Shown piece by piece: positions 15,696 to 35,971 of a stretch of DNA of 64,000 nucleotides. Every line of letters begins with the position of its first letter. The stretch's first letter is position 1. Where the stretch lies: NCBI GenBank assembly GCA_003225005.1, contig QIAN01000082.1, positions 10,158 to 74,157 on the forward strand, read 5' to 3'. The position numbers and the translations under genes are program-made. Source of the stretch: Acidobacteriota bacterium. GTDB taxonomy: Bacteria; Acidobacteriota; Terriglobia; Terriglobales; Acidobacteriaceae. The notes beneath the pieces are model-generated. The model saw only the letters and a list, made by a program, of their open reading frames with translations, was not told the DNA's origin and did no database searches.

Positions 15696-15712
15696 TTGGT
15701 GCAGCGGTTGCT
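15696..15712 (+). promoter_or_regulatory. Sigma54 (-24/-12) promoter of the ADOP efflux operon
   Basis: TTGGTGCAGCGGTTGCT fits the sigma54 consensus YTGGCACGRNNNTTGCW at 14 of 17 positions, with GG (15698-15699) and GC (15710-15711) in the required spacing and an intact TTGC block. The deduced start of transcription is near 15723, only about three bases before the adaptor ATG at 15726, so the transcript would be almost leaderless. Support comes from the two tandem dyads upstream and the NtrC-class regulator encoded in the same block. Confidence 0.65.
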
Positions 15713-15725
15713 TACGAGCAAAGCA

Positions 15726-16985
15726 ATGGACATCGCTCGGCCTGAATTCAGGCTCCAGAAGCGCCGCCGACAGATCGTTCTTTTCGGGGCCGGAGCCGTG
15801 CTGGTTGTGGCGGTATCGATTGGGGTCATGAGGCTGAAGCCGGCGGCTCCCTCCGTCGAGCGCGGAACCGTGTGGACCGATCTCGTGAAACGAGGATCCA
15901 TGCTGCGGCAGGTGAGGGGACCGGGTTCGTTGATGCCGGTGCAGGAAGCGGTTCGTCAGATTCCCGCCGAAACCGAAGCGACGGTAGTGCGTATTCGTGT
16001 GCTGCCGGGCACGCAGGTGCAAGCTGACACCGTTCTACTCGAGATGAGCAATTCGCAGGTCGAGCAAGCAGCGATTGACGCGCAGCTTCAATTGAAAGCG
16101 GCCGAAGCGGAGTATCAAAGCCTGCGTGTGCGGCTCGACAGCGACCTCATGACCCAGAAAGCCGGCGCCGCAACCGTGAATGCGGACTACAGTCAGGCGC
16201 AACGACAGGCCGACACGGACAAAGCGCTTTACGACCTCGGCGTAATTTCAGGTCTGGCTTACAAGTCATCCAAGGGCAAAGCGGACGAACTCACCACCAG
16301 AAATGACCTCGAAGGGCAGAGGCTGACGATCAACAAGAAAGCCATCGAGACACAGCTCGCGCAGGAGCAGGCGAAGGTAGACCAGGCGCGCACTCTCGCC
16401 GCACTAAAGCAAAAGCAACTCGATGCGCTTAGAGTTCGAGCTGGCATCGGCGGGGTGTTGGTCGATCTCCCCATGCAGGTAGGCCAGCACGTTCAGCCTG
16501 GAACCATGCTGGCCAAAGTGGTGCAGCCAGAACACCTGATGGCCGCATTGAAGATCGCGGAAACGCAAGCGCGCGATGTGCAGTTTGGCGAGCCCGCATC
16601 GATCGACACACACAACGGCATCATCAGCGGCACGGTGATGCGGGTCGATCCTGCAGTACAAAACGGAACCGTCACCGTGGACGTCAAACTAACAGGCGAA
16701 CTGCCCAAGGGAGCCCGGCCCGATCTCAGCGTCGACGGAACCATCGACCTGGAGCGGCTGGACAATGTGCTTTATGTGGGGCGGCCGGCATTCGGACAGG
16801 AAAACAGCACCATCAGCCTGTTCAAGATGGACACCGATGGCAAAGAGGCCGTGCGCGTCCCGGTCAAGGTGGGACGCGAATCGGTGAATTCAATTCAGAT
16901 TTTTGAGGGACTTCACGAAGGCGACACCGTAATTCTTTCCGACATGTCGCGGTGGGACAAGACGGATCGTATCCGCCTTGAGTGA
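15726..16985 (+). CDS. HlyD/MacA-family periplasmic adaptor (membrane fusion protein)
   Basis: About 419 residues from the ATG at 15726; an upstream TTG at 15696 lies inside the promoter and is not credible. A short basic N-terminus (RLQKRRRQ) precedes one membrane anchor (residues about 14-32). Then come the first half of the lipoyl/barrel-sandwich domain (VRIRVLPGTQVQADTVLLEM), a long coiled-coil hairpin (about 110-235, QLQLKAAEAEYQSL to ALKQKQLDAL), the second lipoyl half (VDLPMQVGQHVQPGTMLAKV) and a beta-barrel with membrane-proximal domain. It should link the inner-membrane permeases to the TolC-type channel encoded downstream. It is the first gene of the efflux block and the only adaptor in it. 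Confidence 0.92.
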   Translation: MDIARPEFRLQKRRRQIVLFGAGAVLVVAVSIGVMRLKPAAPSVERGTVWTDLVKRGSMLRQVRGPGSLMPVQEAVRQIPAETEATVVRIRVLPGTQVQADTVLLEMSNSQVEQAAIDAQLQLKAAEAEYQSLRVRLDSDLMTQKAGAATVNADYSQAQRQADTDKALYDLGVISGLAYKSSKGKADELTTRNDLEGQRLTINKKAIETQLAQEQAKVDQARTLAALKQKQLDALRVRAGIGGVLVDLPMQVGQHVQPGTMLAKVVQPEHLMAALKIAETQARDVQFGEPASIDTHNGIISGTVMRVDPAVQNGTVTVDVKLTGELPKGARPDLSVDGTIDLERLDNVLYVGRPAFGQENSTISLFKMDTDGKEAVRVPVKVGRESVNSIQIFEGLHEGDTVILSDMSRWDKTDRIRLE

Positions 16986-17017: not shown

Positions 17018-17743
17018 ATGACCGAAGCGGGGCAACCACTGATCCAGATTCAGGACCTGACCAAAGTCTTTTACACCGACGAGATCGAAACCCACGCACT
17101 CTCCGGAGTGCACCTTTCCATTAATAAAGGAGAGTACGTGGCAATGTCGGGCCCTTCAGGGTGCGGCAAATCGACGCTGCTGTCGATCATTGGCCTGCTG
17201 GATACGCCCACGGAAGGACAGTACTCGCTGAATGGGAAGACAGTCGAGAATCTCGATTTTGCCGAACGCTCGCGGATTCGCAATCAAGAGATCGGATTCA
17301 TCTTCCAGAGTTTCAACCTGATCGGCGACTTGACTGTGTATGAAAACGTCGAGCTGCCGCTCACGTATCGGCAGAGAATGCCTGCTCCGGACCGCAAGAA
17401 GCGGGTGATGGAGGCGCTGGAACGCGTGGGCATGGCGCACCGCCTCCGGCACTATCCATCGCAGCTTTCCGGCGGCCAGCAGCAGCGTGTCGCCGTGGCG
17501 CGCGCTCTGGGCGGGAAGCCTTCCATCCTGCTGGCGGACGAGCCTACCGGAAATCTCGACTCGCGCAACGGCGAAGCCGTGATGGACCTGCTGCAGAACC
17601 TGCACCGCGAGGGCGCAACGATCTGCATGGTGACGCATGATCCGCGCTTCGCCAAGCATGCGCAACGGGAAGTGCATCTGTTCGACGGCAAGGTGGTGGC
17701 GGAAGAAGCACTGAAAAAGCTGATGGCGGATGTGCACGCATGA
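17018..17743 (+). CDS. ABC transporter ATP-binding protein (MacB/LolD type)
   Basis: A 241-residue nucleotide-binding domain. Walker A is GPSGCGKST (residues 45-53), with Q-loop text IFQSFNLIGDLTVYENVELP, the signature LSGGQQQRVAVARAL, Walker B ILLADEPTGNLDS with a normal D-loop Asp, and the switch histidine in MVTHDP. It belongs to the mechanotransmission (MacB/LolCDE/FtsE) group that pairs with FtsX-type permeases. The stop overlaps the start of the first ADOP gene (ATGA), implying translational coupling. It is the likely engine for most or all permeases in the block. Confidence 0.95.
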   Translation: MTEAGQPLIQIQDLTKVFYTDEIETHALSGVHLSINKGEYVAMSGPSGCGKSTLLSIIGLLDTPTEGQYSLNGKTVENLDFAERSRIRNQEIGFIFQSFNLIGDLTVYENVELPLTYRQRMPAPDRKKRVMEALERVGMAHRLRHYPSQLSGGQQQRVAVARALGGKPSILLADEPTGNLDSRNGEAVMDLLQNLHREGATICMVTHDPRFAKHAQREVHLFDGKVVAEEALKKLMADVHA

Positions 17744-20260: not shown

Positions 20261-21202
20261 ATGGAAACTCTGCTGCAAGACATTCGTTGCGGTGTTCCCA
20301 TGCTGATGAAAAGCCCCAGCAGCTTCACGGCGATCGCAGTGATCACTCTGGCCCTCGGCATCGGGGCCAACACGGCGCTGTTCTCTGTGATCAATCGCGT
20401 GTTGCTCAGCCCGCTGCCCTTTCCCGAGCCAGATCAACCGGTCACGCTGCACGAGAACAAGCCCAACTTCGAAGGCGGCTCCGTTTCTTATCCGAACTTC
20501 CGCGACTGGCAAAAGGACAATCACACATGTAATCCCCTGGGACACAAGGTTCGCGACATCAAGACGATCATCGGCGTTGTAAAAGACAGCAAGTACACCA
20601 GCGTCGATGAGAAGCAAATGCCTATGGCCTATTTCGCGCGCTTTCAGAATGTGAACGCCGTCCAGACGCTGCACTTTGAAGTCCGCGTTAAGGGCGAACC
20701 GCTGAACATGCTCCCGACAATTCGGCGCGTGGTTCATGACATTGCCCCCAACGTGCCGCTGGTCAAACCGATGACCCAGCACGCCCAGTTCGAAGAATCT
20801 TACTCACAACCAAGAATGTTTGCCCGTCTGGGTGGTTTTTTCGGAGTGCTCGCAGCGCTCCTGGTCGCGACCGGTCTTTACGGAACGCTGTCGTATCGGA
20901 CGAACCGCCGCACTCGGGAGATCGGAACTCGCATGGCGCTTGGAGCCCGACGCAGCGAAGTACTGTGGATGATTATGCGCGAGAGCCTGCTCGTCAGGAT
21001 GGCCGGTACGGTAGTGGGTTTTCCGCTCGCGCTGCTGTCTGCAGGGTTTCTCCGCTCGATGCTTTATCAGTTGTCTTCCTTCGATCCGCTCAGCTTCGCG
21101 TGCGCGATCGCTTGCGTCGCACTCGTTGGAGCCGGAGCAGCTTTCCTGCCGGCATGGCGCGCTGCGAGGGTAGAACCCATGGTCGCGTTGCGGTTCGAGT
21201 AG
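20261..21202 (+). CDS. ADOP permease 2, internally deleted but in frame
   Basis: A 313-residue open frame from the ATG at 20261. Residues 1-90 are a normal ADOP N-terminus ([21 protein letters not shown]1 [12 protein letters not shown], start of the periplasmic domain to [11 protein letters not shown]). After about residue 90 the sequence resumes at [13 protein letters not shown], which belongs to the second periplasmic domain, and continues through a complete second FtsX domain to [11 protein letters not shown]. About 490 residues, including the first FtsX domain, are missing without breaking the frame. It could be a minimal single-FtsX permease needing dimerisation, or a dying gene whose frame matters only for coupling. 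Confidence 0.75.
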
Positions 21203-21217: not shown

Positions 21218-23665
21218 ATGAATGGAATGTTTCAGGATCTTCGTTTCGCGGTGCGCCAACTGCTGAAGAGTCCCGGCTTCGCGGCTGTGGCGGTGATTAC
21301 GCTGGCCCTCGGAATCGGCGCGAACACCGCCATCTTCAGCGTGGTGAACGGTGTGCTGCTTCGACCCTTGCCATTCAAAGACGCCGACGAACTGGTTCGC
21401 ATCTGGCATACGCCGCCTGCGAGAAGCTTTCCGGGAATGACGACATTTTCCGTCTCAGCGGCGAACTACGTTGACTGGGAACGCCAGAATCAGGTCTTCG
21501 AAAGGATGGCGATCTATACCGGCCATGGTTTCACCCTAACCGGAGGCGGCAAACCACAGCAACTCTTTGCCTGCGCTGCAACTTACGGTTTCTTCAAAAC
21601 GTTGGGAGTTCAGCCGATGTTAGGCCGTGAGTTTTCTCCCCAGGAAGATCAGCCCGGTCACTCCGATGTCGTGATTCTGAGTTACCGCCTGTGGCAGGAG
21701 CAGTTTGGCTCCAATCCCGCCATCGTAAATCAGAAGATCAACCTCGACGGCCACAACGTCCTCGTCGCTGGCGTCATGCCGCGCAGCTTCCGCTTCCCCG
21801 ACTTTGCGGAAATGTGGACGCCCATGGCGTGGACCGACAAAGAAAAGGCCGTGCGAGGAGAGCACCACTCTGTCGTCATCGCCCGCCTCAAGCCCGGCGT
21901 CGATCTGAAGCAGGCGCAGGCCAATATGAACACGATCTCCAGCCGCCTGGAGCAACAGTATCCCGACGATAACAAGGGGTGGGGCGCTGTAGTTGTTCCG
22001 CTGCATAACGATCTGGTCAGCGACGTCCGCCCCGCGCTGCTGCTCTTGCTCGGCGCGGTGGTATTCGTTCTCCTTGTTGCTTGCGTCAATGTCGCCAATC
22101 TCGCGTTGGCGCGAACGTTCAGCCGCCGCAAAGAAATCGCGATTCGCACCGCTCTGGGCGCCAGTTCGGCGCGTGTACTACGCCAGGTTCTTACTGAATC
22201 GGTACTTTTGGCGATCCTCGGAGGAGCACTCGGCCTCACCTTCGCGCAATCCGGAATTCGCCTGATCACTGCTTTTCTGGCGGACAAACTGCCCCGGTCG
22301 ATTGAAGTCGGTCTTGACGCCAAGGTGCTCGCCTTCACCGCGATCATTTCGTTGCTCAGCGGAGTCATCGCCGGAGTTCTCCCCGCTCTGCGACTCGCCA
22401 AAGGTGAAGTGAACCTGGCACTCAAGGAGGGCCTCGGGCGCACATCCGCAGATTCCAGCGGTCACGCCACGCGCAGCATCCTGGTTGTCGCCGAGGTCGC
22501 CCTCTCTCTGGTGCTGCTGATCGGCGCGGGGCTCATGATCCGCAGCTTTCAGCAACTGCACGCCGTGTATCCGGGCTTCGATTCCCATGGCGTTCTCACC
22601 ATGTCCGCCTCGGTCGCGCGCTCGAAGTTTCCCCAGCCCGCGCAACAAGCCAATTTCTTTGAACGAGTGCTTGCGCGCGTGCGTACTCTGCCTGGAGTCG
22701 AATCCGCCGGCGTGATTGACGACGTGCCTTTGGACAACGGCGGTTCGCATCAGCCCATCGCAATCGAAGGCCGTCCTGTTGTCGCCATGTCGGAGCAGCC
22801 GGAAGTCGATGTCCGCCTGGTCAGTTCCGGCTACATGAGCGCGATGCGAATTCCGATTCTGCGCGGCCGCGACATCAACGATACGGATGTCGCGGGAAGG
22901 CCCGCCGTGATTCTGATTAGCGAGTCCATGGCGCGGCAGTTTTGGCCGGGCGAAGACGCTCTGGGCAAGCGCCTTACCCTGACTTTCTTCCCGGACGCAG
23001 TACGCGAAGTGGTCGGAATCGTGGGCGACGTGAAGCTCGACAGCCTCGACCAGACTCGTCCGACCGCGACTCTGTACTTTTCGCTGGACCAGATTTCCGT
23101 TCCCGCAAATGGAGGATGGAATTCCTTCCCTATGACGCTGGTCGTCCGCTCTACCACAAATCCCGCCGGCATCGTCAGCGCGGTCGCGAATGCTGTCCAC
23201 GAAGTGGACCGCGATATTCCGGTGCGGGACATTTTCACTATGCAAGATCTGTTGGAAAACTCGCTAACTCAGCAACGATTCAACATGCTTCTTCTTGGTG
23301 TCTTCGCCGGACTCGCCTTGCTGTTGGCGGCGATTGGGATCTACAGCGTGCTCTCGTACAGCGTGAAACGGCGCGTGCAGGAAATCGGAATCCGTTTGGC
23401 CTTGGGCGCCCGTATTAGCGATGTTCTTCGCATGGTCATTATCGAAGGCATGAAACCGACCCTGCTGGGTGTCGTCATAGGAACCGCCGGCGCCTTGGCG
23501 ATGGGGCACATTTTGTCGAGCCTCATCTACGGCGTGAAGCCCACCGATCCCGTTACTTTCCTGGCGGTGGCGGTTCTTCTTGCCGCGATCGCGCTCTTTG
23601 CCAGCATTATTCCGGCATATCGGGCGGCCAAGGTCGATCCCATGGTGGCGCTGCGCTACGAGTGA
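21218..23665 (+). CDS. ADOP permease 3
   Basis: A full-length 815-residue duplicated permease. It starts [20 protein letters not shown] with TM1 [16 protein letters not shown]. The first FtsX domain lies near residues 265-400 ([20 protein letters not shown]), the central helix is [14 protein letters not shown], the second FtsX domain lies near 690-810, and the end is [12 protein letters not shown] good ribosome site (GGGAGG) precedes the ATG by about eight bases. The gap from permease 2 is 15 bases. Periplasmic domain sequences differ markedly from those of the sister copies, so substrate ranges may differ. Confidence 0.93.
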
Positions 23666-23674
23666 GGATACCCA

Positions 23675-26104
23675 ATGGAAACAATCTATCAAGATGTTCG
23701 TTATGGATGGCGCATGTTGGGCAAGAGTCCGGGATTCGCCCTGGTGGTCGTGCTGATGCTGGCGCTGGGGATTGGCGCCAATACAGCCGTGTTCACGGTT
23801 CTCAGCGCAGCCTTGCTGCGGCCGCTTCCCTTCGAGAAGCCGGGGGAACTAGTGCAGGTGTGGGAGACCCGCACCTCGGGCGCGTTTCAGCAGATGGAAG
23901 CGTCTTATCCCGACTTTGTGGATATGCGAAACAGCCACGTGTTTGCGCAACTCGGCGGCTACTCGCGGACCACAATGACGCTGTCGCAGCCGAGCGGCGC
24001 GGTGCAGGTAACGGTCGCGATTGCGAGCACGGGATTCTTCGAGACCCTTGGCGTGCGTCCGGTGCTGGGGCGCAGTTTCGCGCCATCCGAAGAAACGGAG
24101 CAAAAGACCGCATCGGTTCTGCTGTCCCATGGCGGATGGCAGAGGCGCTTTGGCGGCGATCCTGCCGTCGTCGGGAAGACTCTGACTCTGGATGGAGTGC
24201 CGTCCACGATAATCGGGGTGCTTCCCAGGGACTTCCAGTTTGGCCCCACAAACTCTGCCGATTTCTGGCAATCGCTGCAGGTTTCAGGTTGGCGGCTACG
24301 AAGAAATGCGCATTGGCTGTATCCCATTGGCCGGCTTAGGTCAGGAGCTTCATTGCAGCAGGCGCAATCGGCTCTGTTGAGCGTGACCCATCGGTTGGAG
24401 AGTCAATACCCTGATTCCAACGCAGGTGTAGCGGTGCGACTCTTCTCTCTACGAGAAGAGCTCCTGGGATCGATGAGGCTGGTCGTCATCGTGCTGATGT
24501 CGACGGTGGGGTTTGTGCTCCTGATCACGTGTGCCAACGTCGCTGGCTTGCTATTGGCGCGATCAGTTCCCCGGCAAAAGGAGATTTCCATTCGGAGCGC
24601 GCTGGGTGCTGGCCGGGCTCGAATTGTTCGTCAACTCTTAACGGAGAACGTACTGCTGTCGGTTGCTGGTGGAGTCGCGGGCCTGCTGGCCGCCTATTGG
24701 GCCGTTCCGACGCTCGTTGCCGCAATTCCAGAGACCGACCTTCTCGCAATGCCAGCGCTGCAGGGACTGAGAGTACAGGGAGAGATTCTGTGGTTCTCGC
24801 TCGCGCTGTCACTGCTGACCGGGATTCTGTTTGGGTTGGCCCCGATTTTCGAAACCTTCAAGATTGATCTTCGCCAGTCGTTGCAGCAAGCTGGGCGCAC
24901 GGCAACAGGATCCTTTCCTCATCGCTTGCGGGGCACGCTTGTGATCTCGGAAGTGGCTCTGGCGGTTGTGCTGCTGGTGAGTGCGGGCCTGATGCTCAAG
25001 AGCCTGAAGCGCGTATTGAACAACGATCCCGGTTTTAACACAGAAAACCTCCTGACTCTCGCGCTCTCCCTCCCGGACAAAGCGTATTCCGATGGCCGGC
25101 GCCAGCTGGGGTTCCAGCGCCAGTTGCTACAAAGAACCAATAGCCTGCCCGGAGTGAAAGAAGCCGCGGCAGTGACCATCATTCCGCTGTCCGGGGCGGG
25201 CAACACTTCGCGGTTTGATCTGGTTGGTCACCCCAAGAGCGGCGGTGGCGAGGAGTATGAAGCGAACACTCGTTCTATCACTACGAATTATTTTTCGGTG
25301 ATGGGAATTCCATTGCGGGCGGGCCGCTTCTTGAATGCTGAGGACACCGAGAAATCGACGCATGTCATCGTAATCAATCAAGCTCTGGCGGATGCCGTAT
25401 TTCCCCATCAAGACCCGCTCGGCAAGCAGCTCAACTTCACTTACACCAACGATCCGAACGTATGGCAAATCGTGGGAGTGGTGGGTAATGAAAATGTTGG
25501 CTGGTTGGACCGGAATCCCAGCCCTGTGATCTATGAGAGCTTCGATCAGGATCCGCCGTCCTATTTCAGCTTGGTGGTGCGAACCCAACAAGATCCAGCG
25601 ACGCTGGCCAGCGCAGTAACCCGTGCCGTCAGGCAAATTGACTCGGGGGTACCGGTCTACGCCATCGCCAGCATGGCACAAATCATCTCGGAATCTCCCA
25701 CGATCCTGCTGCGTTCCTATCCCGCATACTTGCTAGGCGCGTTTGCCGGCTTGGCTTTGCTGCTAGCGGTGCTGGGCCTTTATGCCTTGCTGGCATATTC
25801 GGTGGCGCAACGTACCCGTGAGTTGGGACTCCGCATGGCGCTGGGCGCGCAGCAGAAAGATGTTCTGCGCCTCATTCTCAACAACGGTGTGAGGCTGGCC
25901 CTGATTGGAGCGGCCCTGGGAGTTGCCGGTGCAGTGGCAGCCGGGCAAGTGATTGCCAGCTTGCTATTCGGCGTCACACCGACGGACGCGACCACATTTG
26001 CGGGGGTATGCCTCGTGCTCATGATCTCCGTACTCCTGGCCAGCTATGTCCCAGCTTATCGCGCGACCAGGGTCGATCCCATGGTGGCTCTGCGCTGCGA
26101 ATAG
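23675..26104 (+). CDS. ADOP permease 4
   Basis: A full-length 809-residue member, starting [20 protein letters not shown], with TM1 [16 protein letters not shown]. The first FtsX block begins about residue 265 ([20 protein letters not shown]), the central block is [14 protein letters not shown], and the second FtsX block ends [12 protein letters not shown], with Cys in place of the family's usual Tyr near the end. The gap from permease 3 is nine bases with GAGGA as ribosome site. Transmembrane and C-terminal blocks are conserved, whereas the periplasmic parts are clearly diverged from its neighbours. Confidence 0.92.
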
Positions 26105-30994: not shown

Positions 30995-33451
30995 ATGACT
31001 GGATTGTTTCAGGATGTTCGCTACGCGCTTCGCCAATTGCGCAAGAGCCCGGGATTCACGTCGGCTGCCGTGCTGATGCTGGCGTTGGGTATCGGTGCTA
31101 ACACAGCCATTTTCAGTATGGTCAATGCCGTTCTTCTAAGGCCGCTGCCGTACAAAGAGGCTGACCGGCTGGTGATGGTGTGGGAGCAGAATCCCCATCG
31201 CGGTTGGCTTGAGAACGTTGTTTCGGCAGCGAACTTCCTTGACTGGAAGAAGCAGAACGATGTGTTCAGCGACATGGCTGCGTTCGAATCGAACTTCTTC
31301 AATCTCAGTGGAGGCAACAAGCCCGAGGAGATTGCCGGTGAACGCGTGACCACTAATCTTTTTTCTGTTCTAGGTGTTCGGCCTCTGCGAGGCCGACTAT
31401 TCCTGCCAGAAGAAGAGAAGCGGGGCAGCTCTGCGGTGATTGTGAGCTACGGACTTTGGCAAGAAAACTTCGGAGGCGATCCCGAACTCGTCGGGAAACC
31501 AATCTCGCTGAACGGCCTGGCTTATACGGTTGTGGGCATTCTGCCGGCGACCTTTGCCGACGATTACTCTCGATCGTTCGCGCGGCACTCACGCGTCTGG
31601 ATATCTGGTCTGGATCTTCAGCCCGAAGGCCGGGAGTTTCACGACTACCACGCCATCGCGCGACTCAAGCCGGGTGTAACGCAGGCTCAGGCGCAGACAG
31701 AGATGGACACGATTGCCAGCCGGATCGAGCAGCAATATCCCGAGTCAAAAGGTTGGGGCGTGGCTCTCGTAGGACTGCATGACCAGGCGGTGAAGTACAC
31801 GCGTCCGGCCCTTCTCGTCTTACTGGGTGCGGTCGCTCTGGTGCTGTTGATCGGGTGTGCCAATGTGGCCAACCTGCTGCTGGTGCGCGCGACAGGACGT
31901 CAGAAGGAGATCGCGATCCGCACAGCGCTGGGCGCCACCCGCGCACAAATTGTGCGGCAATTCCTGGTGGAGAGTTCGCTGCTGTCGATGATGGGGGCGG
32001 TACTGGGACTTGTTCTTGCCGCCTGGGGATCGGAAATCCTGGTGAGGCTGATGCCTCCCGATACGGCGAGAGTTGAAGGAGCGGGAATCAACGGTCTCGT
32101 GCTTCTTTTTACCGTCGTGATTACACTCGGAACGGGAATCGCATTCGGGCTAGTTCCTGCATTGAGTGCGTCCAGAGCCAAGATAAGCGAGACACTGAAA
32201 GAAAGTGGCCGAGGTTCGAGTCAGAGTACCAGCGGCCGCAGGCTACGGGACGCGCTCGTAGTCTGCGAGTTTGGTCTGGCATTAGCGTTACTGGTTGGAG
32301 CCGGCTTAATGATTAAGACGCTGGTGCATCTCGATCGGGTCGACATCGGCCTTGATCCGGAGAACCTTCTGACCATGAAGGTGCCGCTCGAAGGCCCGCA
32401 GTATCAGGATCAACGGCGACAGGTGGAATTCTTTCAGCAGCTTCTAGCCCGCGTTGAGGCGCTGCCGGGAGTCGAAGCCGCAAGCGTGACTCGTGGCGTT
32501 CCGATGTATGGCTGGGCAGGCTGGAGCTTTGTGACAGCTGATCATCCGAACCCGCCCGCGGGCGAGACGCCTGACGCGAACTATGTCGTCATCGGACCGC
32601 ACTATTTCCGGACGATGGGAATTCCATTACGCCTGGGCAGGCCATTCTCTGATGGCGACACGCCAACTTCGGAGCGAGTCGTGATTGTCAGCGAGTCACT
32701 GGCTCACAAGCAGTGGCCGGGAGAAGACCCCATCGGAAAGCGCCTTAAGGTAGGTGCTGACCCAAGCAACAAGAGCCTACCATGGCTTTCAGTAATTGGT
32801 GTGGCCGGAAACGTCAGGAGTGAGGGTCAGTATGCGCCCTTCGTGCCGGAACTATACGTCCCCTACACGCAACATCCCTGGATTCTGCGGCCTCGCCACA
32901 TCGTAGTCCGCAGTGCCTCCAGTTTGTCTGCGATCGTTCCTGCCATCCGTCACGAAATTGCAGCTCTGGACAAAAATGCCCCGGTTTCGGAGATCAGTAC
33001 CATGAAAGAGATCATAGCGGGCCCGGTACTTCAGGGGCAGACCGTCATGTGGTTGCTCGGTGCCTTCGCGGCCCTGGCGCTGATTCTTGCTGCCATAGGA
33101 ATTTACAGCGTCGTTTCTTACGCAGTGACCCAGCGGACGCACGAACTCGGCATTCGGATGGCCCTGGGCGCGGATCATCGAGCTGTCGTGAATCTGGTAG
33201 TGCAGCAGGGCCTGTTTCTGGCGATGATTGGCGTCGTAACAGGCTTGGCGGGAGCGTTGGCCATGGCCCGTTTCGTCTCCAGCTTGCCGTTCGAGGTGCG
33301 ATGGTTGTTGCTGTTCGATGTGCCACCGACAGACACGCTGACGTTCGTCAGCGTGTCCGCAATCCTGACCATCGTGGCCTTCTTGGGCAGTTATGTGCCG
33401 GCCCGACGCGCGGCGAAAGTCGATCCCATGGTGGCGTTGCGTTATGAGTAG
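30995..33451 (+). CDS. ADOP permease 7
   Basis: 818 residues, starting [20 protein letters not shown], with both FtsX halves present. In the last FtsX domain, between two helices, there is an extra hydrophobic stretch ([18 protein letters not shown]) where the sisters read a short YGVxPTDP loop. This lengthens the periplasmic loop before the final helix. The end is [11 protein letters not shown]. The gap from permease 6 is 17 bases with GGAG about nine bases before the ATG. Confidence 0.92.
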
Positions 33452-33460
33452 GAGATTGAA

Positions 33461-35971
33461 ATGACCGGAATACTCGAAGATCTTCGTTATGCCCTGCGGC
33501 AGGTACGCACGAATCCGGGGTTTACGGCCGTCGCTCTCCTCACTCTGGCGCTTGGTATAGGCGCCAACACCGGCATTTTCACTCTGGTTAATGCTGTGTT
33601 GTTGAAGTCCCTGCCGGTGCCGAACCCTGAGCAGCTTTTCCTTGTCCGCCAGGGTGACCGGTTTGCCGAGCAAACCCGTGTGTCTTATCCGCTTTATGAA
33701 CGGATGTTGAACGCCATGCCTCGATCCGCGAACCTGGCTGCAGTGACTCGGCCCGGTGACTTCTACTTGAGAACTGGAACTAGTCAGCCCGAGATGAGCA
33801 AGGGGCAACTTGTTTCGGGAAACTATTTTCAGACCTTCGAGACCTATCCTGTCCTCGGCAGACTCCTGACCCCAGAAGACAATCGAGTCATCGACGGTCA
33901 TCCGTCGGCGGTGATCAGTTACGGCTCCTGGAAGCGCCGCTTTGCTGGTGCACCTGACGTGATTGGGCGCGAACTGATCATCAATAGCCTGCGCTTCACG
34001 ATTGTCGGGGTGACAGCGGCAGATTTCTTTGGGGAGGAACCGGGAAGGGCGCCGGATTTTTGGCTCCCGCTCATGATGCAGTCGTCTCTTCACTACGCCC
34101 AGCATTACAGCAAGAGCACGGCGGCCGATGAGGACAAACCCTGGGTGTTCGAGGAAGACATCACTTGGGTGGGACTGATCGTCCGAGCAAGGAATCGAAG
34201 CGAGCTGTCCCACATTTCCGGCATCCTCAACCAGCTTGTCTCCGAAGACCTTGAGCGACACGGGATCCGAGCAAGTGCGGCCGAAGACCAGCGGGCTCGT
34301 CTCGAAAACCAGCTCGTGCTCGAGCCGGGTAGTCAGGGGACGAAGGCGCTGCAGCGCGAGTTCTCGCAACCTCTCCTGGTACTGAGCGGAATGGTAGGCC
34401 TGGTTCTGCTGATCGCGTGTGCGAACCTTGCCAGTCTGCTGTTGGCGCGAGCCACGACTCGGGCGCGCGAGATTGCTGCACGCCTCTCGATCGGCGCCAC
34501 ACGAAGCCGCCTGGTTCGACAGCTTCTGACGGAGTCCCTGCTGCTCTCAATTTTCGGTGGTCTGCTCGGAATCGGGGTGGCTTATTGGTGCGACACGGTC
34601 CTGCCTGGGTGGGCATCGGGCGGATCATTGCCCATTCCGCTCGACCTAGCGCCTGATATGCGCGTTCTGTTGTTCAGTATCGTCGTCGTGCTGGCCACCG
34701 GAATTCTCTTCGGTTTGGCTCCGGCTTTCCACGCAACAAATATCGCACCAGTACACGCTCTCAAAGCGAACGCAAGTTGGGCCTCCAGCACGCAGCGCAC
34801 GGGGGCCCAATGGTCGCTCCGGCAGACTCTGGTCGTCGCACAGTTTGCATTGTCGTTAGTCCTTCTGGTTGGCGCTGGGTTGTTCATTCGCACTCTCAGA
34901 AATTTCGTGAGGCTCGACCCCGGTTTCGATCGTGACCATATCCTTACTGTCTGGCTCGATACAAATATCCGGCACTACGACCACGGTCAACTGCTTTCGT
35001 TTTATCAGAAGGCACTTGATCGCGTGCAAGCGCTCCCCGGTGTGCACTCGGCGTCTCTGGCGACATGTAGCATCGCCTCAAACTGCAGGAGTGCTAGCGA
35101 TATTTACTTGCCAGGAGGCACCCACCTTGCGGCTACGCCGCAGACGAACATTGTCAGTTTGCACTACTTCGACAATGTCGGGATCCCGCGCCTGCGTGGG
35201 CGCGACTTTACGCTGGCAGACAATGAGAAAGCCTCACACGTCGCAATGATTAATCAGAGCCTGGCCCGTGAAGTGTTTGCTGGTGTAGATCCTATCGGCC
35301 AGCACTTTGGTTATGACCCCGGGTCTGCCAACGAGTTTCAGATCGTAGGAGTGGTGGCGGATGCATTGGTAAACGGCGTACGCGAAACTGCGCCGCCCAT
35401 GATCTATTTCCCTCTATTACAGGCCGTGACGAACGTTCAGAGTCTCGACGTGCGCGCCGCAGGCAATCCCGCACCGCTCACCGAACAAGTCCGCCAGGCG
35501 CTTACGAGCGTCGATCCTGATCTTCCCATCGGAGACCTTACTACCCTCGCAGAACAGGTCACCAGCAACCTGGGGCGGCAAAAGCTCATCGCGCGACTGA
35601 CCGCAATCTTCGGCGCTCTGGCACTCGCTCTCGCGTGCCTTGGTCTTTACGGGGTGATGTCTTACACTGTCGCGCGCCGGACCGGCGAACTCGGAATTCG
35701 ACTGGCTTTGGGAGCTCCGCGCAACGCAGTTCTCTGGCTTGTGCTGCATCAGACGCTGGTATTGATCAGCGCTGGTGTTGCTGCGGGATTATTGCTGTCG
35801 TTTCTTGCCGGGAGCACGGTCACAAGCCTGTTATTTGGCCTGAGTGCGTACGATCCTGCCACCCTCTTGGAAGCAACGGTGGTTCTGACGTTGGTGTCTT
35901 TCGGTTCGGGTCTAAGACCGGCGTGGCGTGCCGCTCACCTCAATCCGACAGAAGCTTTGCGCGTGGAATGA
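33461..35971 (+). CDS. ADOP permease 8
   Basis: 836 residues, the last and longest permease. It starts [20 protein letters not shown] with TM1 [20 protein letters not shown], and has complete first (LSGMVGLVLLIACANLASLL) and second FtsX domains. The C-terminus has drifted to AHLNPTEALRVE, losing the [10 protein letters not shown] tail shared by most of the others. Its first periplasmic domain is longer, with an Asp/Glu-rich portion around KSTAADEDKPWVFEEDI. The second ATPase gene follows after 19 bases. Confidence 0.92.
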   Translation: MTGILEDLRYALRQVRTNPGFTAVALLTLALGIGANTGIFTLVNAVLLKSLPVPNPEQLFLVRQGDRFAEQTRVSYPLYERMLNAMPRSANLAAVTRPGDFYLRTGTSQPEMSKGQLVSGNYFQTFETYPVLGRLLTPEDNRVIDGHPSAVISYGSWKRRFAGAPDVIGRELIINSLRFTIVGVTAADFFGEEPGRAPDFWLPLMMQSSLHYAQHYSKSTAADEDKPWVFEEDITWVGLIVRARNRSELSHISGILNQLVSEDLERHGIRASAAEDQRARLENQLVLEPGSQGTKALQREFSQPLLVLSGMVGLVLLIACANLASLLLARATTRAREIAARLSIGATRSRLVRQLLTESLLLSIFGGLLGIGVAYWCDTVLPGWASGGSLPIPLDLAPDMRVLLFSIVVVLATGILFGLAPAFHATNIAPVHALKANASWASSTQRTGAQWSLRQTLVVAQFALSLVLLVGAGLFIRTLRNFVRLDPGFDRDHILTVWLDTNIRHYDHGQLLSFYQKALDRVQALPGVHSASLATCSIASNCRSASDIYLPGGTHLAATPQTNIVSLHYFDNVGIPRLRGRDFTLADNEKASHVAMINQSLAREVFAGVDPIGQHFGYDPGSANEFQIVGVVADALVNGVRETAPPMIYFPLLQAVTNVQSLDVRAAGNPAPLTEQVRQALTSVDPDLPIGDLTTLAEQVTSNLGRQKLIARLTAIFGALALALACLGLYGVMSYTVARRTGELGIRLALGAPRNAVLWLVLHQTLVLISAGVAAGLLLSFLAGSTVTSLLFGLSAYDPATLLEATVVLTLVSFGSGLRPAWRAAHLNPTEALRVE

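Follow-up and report, generated by a model that had tools for sequence, protein, structure and literature searches.

MacB and LolC/LolE are single-FtsX permeases of the type VII ABC class. Permeases of the ADOP family (TIGR03434) have two FtsX domains, owing to an internal duplication, and the family was named "orphan" for the absence of ATPases. Among the papers listed in literature searches on Acidobacteria, none dealt with ADOPs to judge by its title, and the one listed for duplicated orphan permeases was a Dyadobacter species description. No literature was found on MacB + FtsX permease ABC transporters in Acidobacteria.

The window, meaning the whole 64,000-nucleotide stretch of DNA that was analysed, carried an ADOP array between positions 15696 and 41486. 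The array lay within an operon with a HlyD-type adaptor, two ABC ATPases, an outer-membrane efflux protein (OEP), a sigma-54 response regulator and a histidine kinase, and this gene set has the predicted layout of a tripartite efflux system. The sharing of an operon by ADOPs and ABC ATPases is contrary to the "orphan" in the family name. Between two full-length ADOPs of the array was a short gene, hereafter the mini gene (20261–21202). Below, G000 is the window's own genome, other G codes are relative genomes and L codes are scanned loci. A and B are the two adjoining full-length ADOP genes of the relative G051 to which the two ends of the mini gene were aligned (Table 1).

Table 1 Features of the operon around the mini gene, and the short or broken ADOPs discussed in the text.
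Feature	Location	Strand	Remarks
HlyD-type periplasmic adaptor	15696..16985	+	operon start
ABC ATPase of the operon	17018..17743	+	precedes the array; 98% identical to that of G051
Full-length ADOP, 834 aa	17740..20244	+	directly upstream of mini gene; TIGR03434 878 bits
Gene A remnant (aa 1–89), from the start codon through N-terminal helix and TM1 to the first periplasmic residues	20261..20528	+	DNA and protein alignment to G051 A
Filler GT, 2 nt, at junction	20529..20530	+	outside both alignments
Gene B remnant, with the final ~100 residues of the second periplasmic domain, then the FtsX domain and the stop	20531..21202	+	ungapped DNA alignment to G051 B
Full-length ADOP, 815 aa	21218..23665	+	directly downstream of mini gene; 78% ortholog directly after G051 B
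G051 single-FtsX ADOP, 392 aa	L050 5077-6252, contig C71	-	TIGR03434 1–184 + 608–813; in homologous operon
G046 single-FtsX ADOP, 404 aa	L095 1791-3002, contig C34	-	TIGR03434 1–189 + 600–813
G017 frame-broken ADOP in array	L039 7787-10279		B relative
G004 frame-broken ADOP in array	L036 3-2506
G000 incomplete ADOPs	L056, L057		split frames
G000 incomplete ADOP	L059		apparently out-of-frame internal deletion
G000 incomplete ADOPs	L058, L060		remnants
G000 incomplete ADOP	L062		stop, close to contig end

The mini gene had 313 codons in an unbroken frame, with no internal stop or frameshift. Its protein joined an ADOP-type TM1 to an ADOP C-terminal half with a single FtsX domain. PF02687 (FtsX) matched one stretch only (residues 193–306, 64.1 bits, cut-off 25.5), so that it had one FtsX domain in place of the two typical of ADOPs. 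TIGR03434 matched in two stretches with 333.4 bits, below the curated whole-protein cut-off of 622.3. In the genome search, profile positions 1–90 and 581–803 were found in one open frame, and about 490 positions (~91–580) are therefore missing from the protein. MacB was matched among PDB sequences, over residues ~195–311. The mini protein thus resembles ADOPs in the source of both its pieces, in TM1 and the C-terminal FtsX half, and in its place in an ADOP array, but differs in its single FtsX domain and lost middle. With MacB and LolC/LolE it shares a TM1, a periplasmic stretch and an FtsX domain. Unlike them, it has lost most of the periplasmic core, has no fused ATPase, and originated by fusion within a duplicated family.

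In G051, a genome of the same genus, full-length A and B adjoined on contig C71 and were followed by the same next gene as in the window. The end of A (817 aa) met the start of B, with a four-base ATGA overlap if the first ATG of B is used; the B start aligning with relatives was 12 nt after this first ATG. At the DNA level, nucleotides 1–268 of the mini gene aligned to nucleotides 1–265 of A, with one 3-nt gap, and nucleotides 271–942 aligned ungapped to nucleotides 1816–2487 of B. The protein comparisons gave the same partition. Residues 1–88 (the N piece) had 90% amino acid identity to G051 A, 84% to G011 A and 61–82% to A-type frames at eight further loci. Residues 91–313 (the C piece, 223 aa) were 86.5% identical to full-length G051 B. 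Their identity was 62–73% to the B genes of G047, G012, G004, G059, G056, G016 and G017, 55% to one B-type gene of G050, and 76% over 137 residues to a further G017 B gene, whose frame was broken. The wrong pairings scored lower, with 55% over 60 residues for the N piece against G051 B and 31% for the C piece against the C-terminus of G011 A.

These alignments make it almost certain that the mini gene originated from two genes, the start of A being joined to the end of B. The first-pass annotation had described TM1 joined in frame to a single-FtsX half within a polycistronic array, and this anatomy stood. Its derivation, by which one ADOP had lost its first FtsX domain and about 490 residues internally, was rejected, as the N and C pieces belong to two paralogs and the deletion of about 4.0 kb ran across both. 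Measured against G051, 4000 nt were missing from the window and the 2-nt filler was present. Of A, the terminal ~89% was lost in the fusion, and of B the initial ~73%. The breakpoints shared a few bases at most and no long repeat was common to both, so the deletion looks illegitimate. With full-length A and B adjoining in a relative, the event can be followed almost to the single base.

The operon was also conserved past the array, where the second ABC ATPase, the OEP and the two-component genes were 89–93% identical between the window and G051. A point against the two-gene origin is that A and B were adjacent in G051 only. In G011, A directly preceded the ortholog of 21218–23665; in G004, two ADOPs stood between B and this ortholog; in G047, A and B were on separate contigs; and the arrays upstream of A differed between the window and G051.

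To find the junction elsewhere, we searched 45 genomes of the genus (E≤1e-35, at most the best 50 candidates per genome scored) and 399 genomes of the class (E≤1e-55, best 5 candidates per genome), two overlapping sets that both included G000. Among the candidates scored, residues 1–313 were spanned in one frame by G000 alone; as only these best candidates were scored, a weaker copy of the junction may have been missed. The check proposed in the first-pass annotation, a search for the same junction in related genomes, was thus negative within these thresholds. In the 45 genus genomes, strong matches to the N piece (68–86%) and to the C piece (55–86%) were always in different frames, except in G000. 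A few weak matches (34–52% identity) had their start at residue 18, 40, 66, 79 or 84, ahead of the junction. Three loci in which query residues 1–313 were matched (L064, L065 and L068) were rejected as fusion copies, their frames consisting of the C-terminal end of one gene and the N-terminal start of the next. The window ADOP at 30995–33451 was rejected as a mosaic; its appearance was an effect of the locus edge, and its relative in G011 was full length. One record titled Betaproteobacteria (L070) carried an A-type ADOP with 65% identity over the N piece, either a misbinned contig or a transfer.

Selection was estimated with a branch codon model, in which the mini branch comprises everything since the split from G051, and so spans time before and after the fusion. 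Omega on this branch was 0.084 for the N piece (88 codons) and 0.123 for the C piece (223 codons), no different from the background values of 0.067 and 0.107 (p=0.73 and 0.71, respectively). The joint omega was ~0.125 (grid set 0.08–0.20), and omega=1 was rejected with p=9e-6. On the same branch the intact downstream ADOP had an omega of 0.08 (0.04 in its first 88 codons, 0.10 in its last 223). For the N piece the test had low power, the intact A branch of G051 having an omega of 0.228 with omega=1 not rejected (p=0.51). The branch as a whole is not neutral, and to this extent the first-pass annotation is supported, but the branch includes the time before the fusion, which may be recent. With neutrality since the fusion and a background of ~0.1, the grid would require the fusion to be no older than about a tenth to a sixth of the branch.

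The N piece had a few radical changes at conserved sites (Y10C, R13P and L60P), and the codon inserted at residue 20 fell on a conserved site as well. The ancestral residue at the three substituted columns was held by 60, 66 and 53 of about 66–68 family members. Three of the four polarised N-piece changes cost at least 6 profile bits, whereas among 135 changes in the downstream ADOP 6 did so (Fisher p=7e-4), a test on n=4 substitutions chosen after the changes were seen. The same four profile values stayed within 0.1 when the sister was left out, and a rank test against the first 88 residues of the downstream ADOP gave p=0.018. The C-piece changes did not differ from those of the neighbour (p=0.24). 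The fit to the profile was within the family range for both pieces: among full-length ADOPs, 14 of 66 fitted less well than the N piece and 33 of 65 less well than the C piece. The pattern of substitutions suggests a decay of the mini gene. No relative sharing the junction, by which the changes could be dated against the fusion, was found in the 45 genus and 399 class genomes within the thresholds used.

We surveyed short ADOPs at 8 loci of G000 and at another 24 loci (15 + 9) that had short frames or served as controls. The survey was not exhaustive: some short rows, G055:C700, G050:C707 and G021:C181 among them, lay outside it, and at contig edges many incomplete ADOPs were unclassable. In 29 scanned loci, some of them overlapping, there were 77 full-length ADOP frames and two that lacked only the middle, in frame, one in the window and one in G051; the remaining ADOP frames were frame-broken, truncated or edge-cut. 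The 392-aa gene of G051 was the ortholog of window 23675–26104 (88–93%, part by part), and its collapse lay between the VGV motifs of halves 1 and 2. The 404-aa gene of G046, a relative of window 33461–35971 (60–75%), was collapsed near the same VGV repeat. Like the mini gene, both are in frame, join TM1 to the second FtsX half and come from the same genus. They differ in that each is a within-gene collapse near the VGV motif, whereas the window holds a two-gene fusion at non-equivalent positions. Judged from their reading frames, at least three predicted single-FtsX ADOPs (window, G051 and G046) have arisen in the genus, from different genes. Within a single genus, duplicated permeases have thus apparently returned on more than one occasion to forms with a single FtsX domain, and such returns would be a natural test of the need for the ADOP duplication and of whether half-permeases pair with full ones.

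Two other origins for the junction were weighed. An internal deletion in a single ADOP that was already a mosaic, A-like in its N half and B-like in its C half, is conceivable in that array order and content vary between species, and the weak matches starting before the junction could be taken in its favour. It is nevertheless very unlikely, as among the matches listed for the 45 genus genomes strong matches to the two pieces never shared a frame outside G000, and as A and B stand in the required order before the same next gene in G051. An artefact of assembly, with reads of A wrongly connected to reads of B, would be easiest to imagine in a draft genome of 550 contigs such as this one. Against it, the junction has no long shared repeat and has filler bases, and the A piece has its own substitutions and codon insertion. 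Elsewhere in G000 the N piece was matched at 54% at best and the C piece at 39%, or at 45% over residues 168–313 at one place; close copies of A and B are therefore absent from the assembly, and we regard an artefact as the most improbable of the explanations. In the two-gene account, a single illegitimate deletion of ~4.0 kb in the tandem array would have joined the start of the upstream A to the end of the downstream B, which would have landed in the frame of A by a one-in-three chance. The first-pass annotation had argued that decay would usually break the frame; since a single deletion keeps it one time in three, this argument is weak and the open frame alone tells little. The product would still be translated from the A start within the efflux operon, and would insert with TM1 and TM2–4, without most of the periplasmic domain. 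The mini gene is probably a young, largely dispensable relic of the fusion, with a putative, still translatable product.

As to the protein itself, we lean toward a relic rather than a selected permease, since most of the periplasmic core has been lost and some N-piece changes are radical and at conserved positions. PF12704 (MacB_PCD) scored 13.2 bits against the whole mini protein and 15.3 bits against its first 190 residues, below the cut-off of 27 and over 26 of the 207 profile positions, compared with 90.9 bits for half 1 of A and 49.4 bits for half 2 of B. In MacB, the periplasmic domain contacts the adaptor. The rival reading is a selected small permease, in which the fusion restores the four-TM single-FtsX topology of MacB and LolC/E and the half-subunit pairs with itself or with another ADOP on the ATPase of the operon. 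The low branch omega, the well-kept FtsX domain and the independent in-frame forms from other parent genes in G051 and G046 speak for it; the low omega, the intact frame, the ordinary C-piece changes and the profile fit speak against a relic. It remains the less likely reading, since the G051 form retains a match to MacB_PCD (59.6 bits) that the window form has lost, the N-piece changes fall on conserved sites, and the omega covers the whole branch and cannot be dated to the time after the fusion. The AlphaFold2 models were of low confidence, with a mean pLDDT of 44.9 for the window form (alignment of 15 rows) and 35.7 for the G051 form (5-row alignment). The broader proposal, that in the ADOP arrays of Acidobacteria functional single-FtsX permeases arise again and again from duplicated ones by neighbour fusion or internal-repeat collapse, and that the 313-aa protein is such a selected half-permease on an operon ATPase shared with full-length ADOPs, is more doubtful still. 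Translational coupling, by which the frame would be kept for translating the downstream ADOPs and the mini protein itself would be unneeded, fits the short spacing of 15 nt from the mini stop codon to the start of the following gene and the near contact of A and B in G051. It is improbable, however, given the chance of retaining a frame and the GGGAGG that the next gene has before its own start. The arrays of G004 and G017 contain frame-broken ADOPs, so an open frame is not needed at every array position. If the mini gene is only a relic, it is still a clean example of turnover in tandem permease arrays.

Six further ADOPs in G000 were broken or remnants, and permease decay is therefore common in this genome. 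In G134, a member of the class, a 150-aa in-frame remnant (L094 39-488, minus strand) covered ADOP profile positions 2–45 and 733–813.
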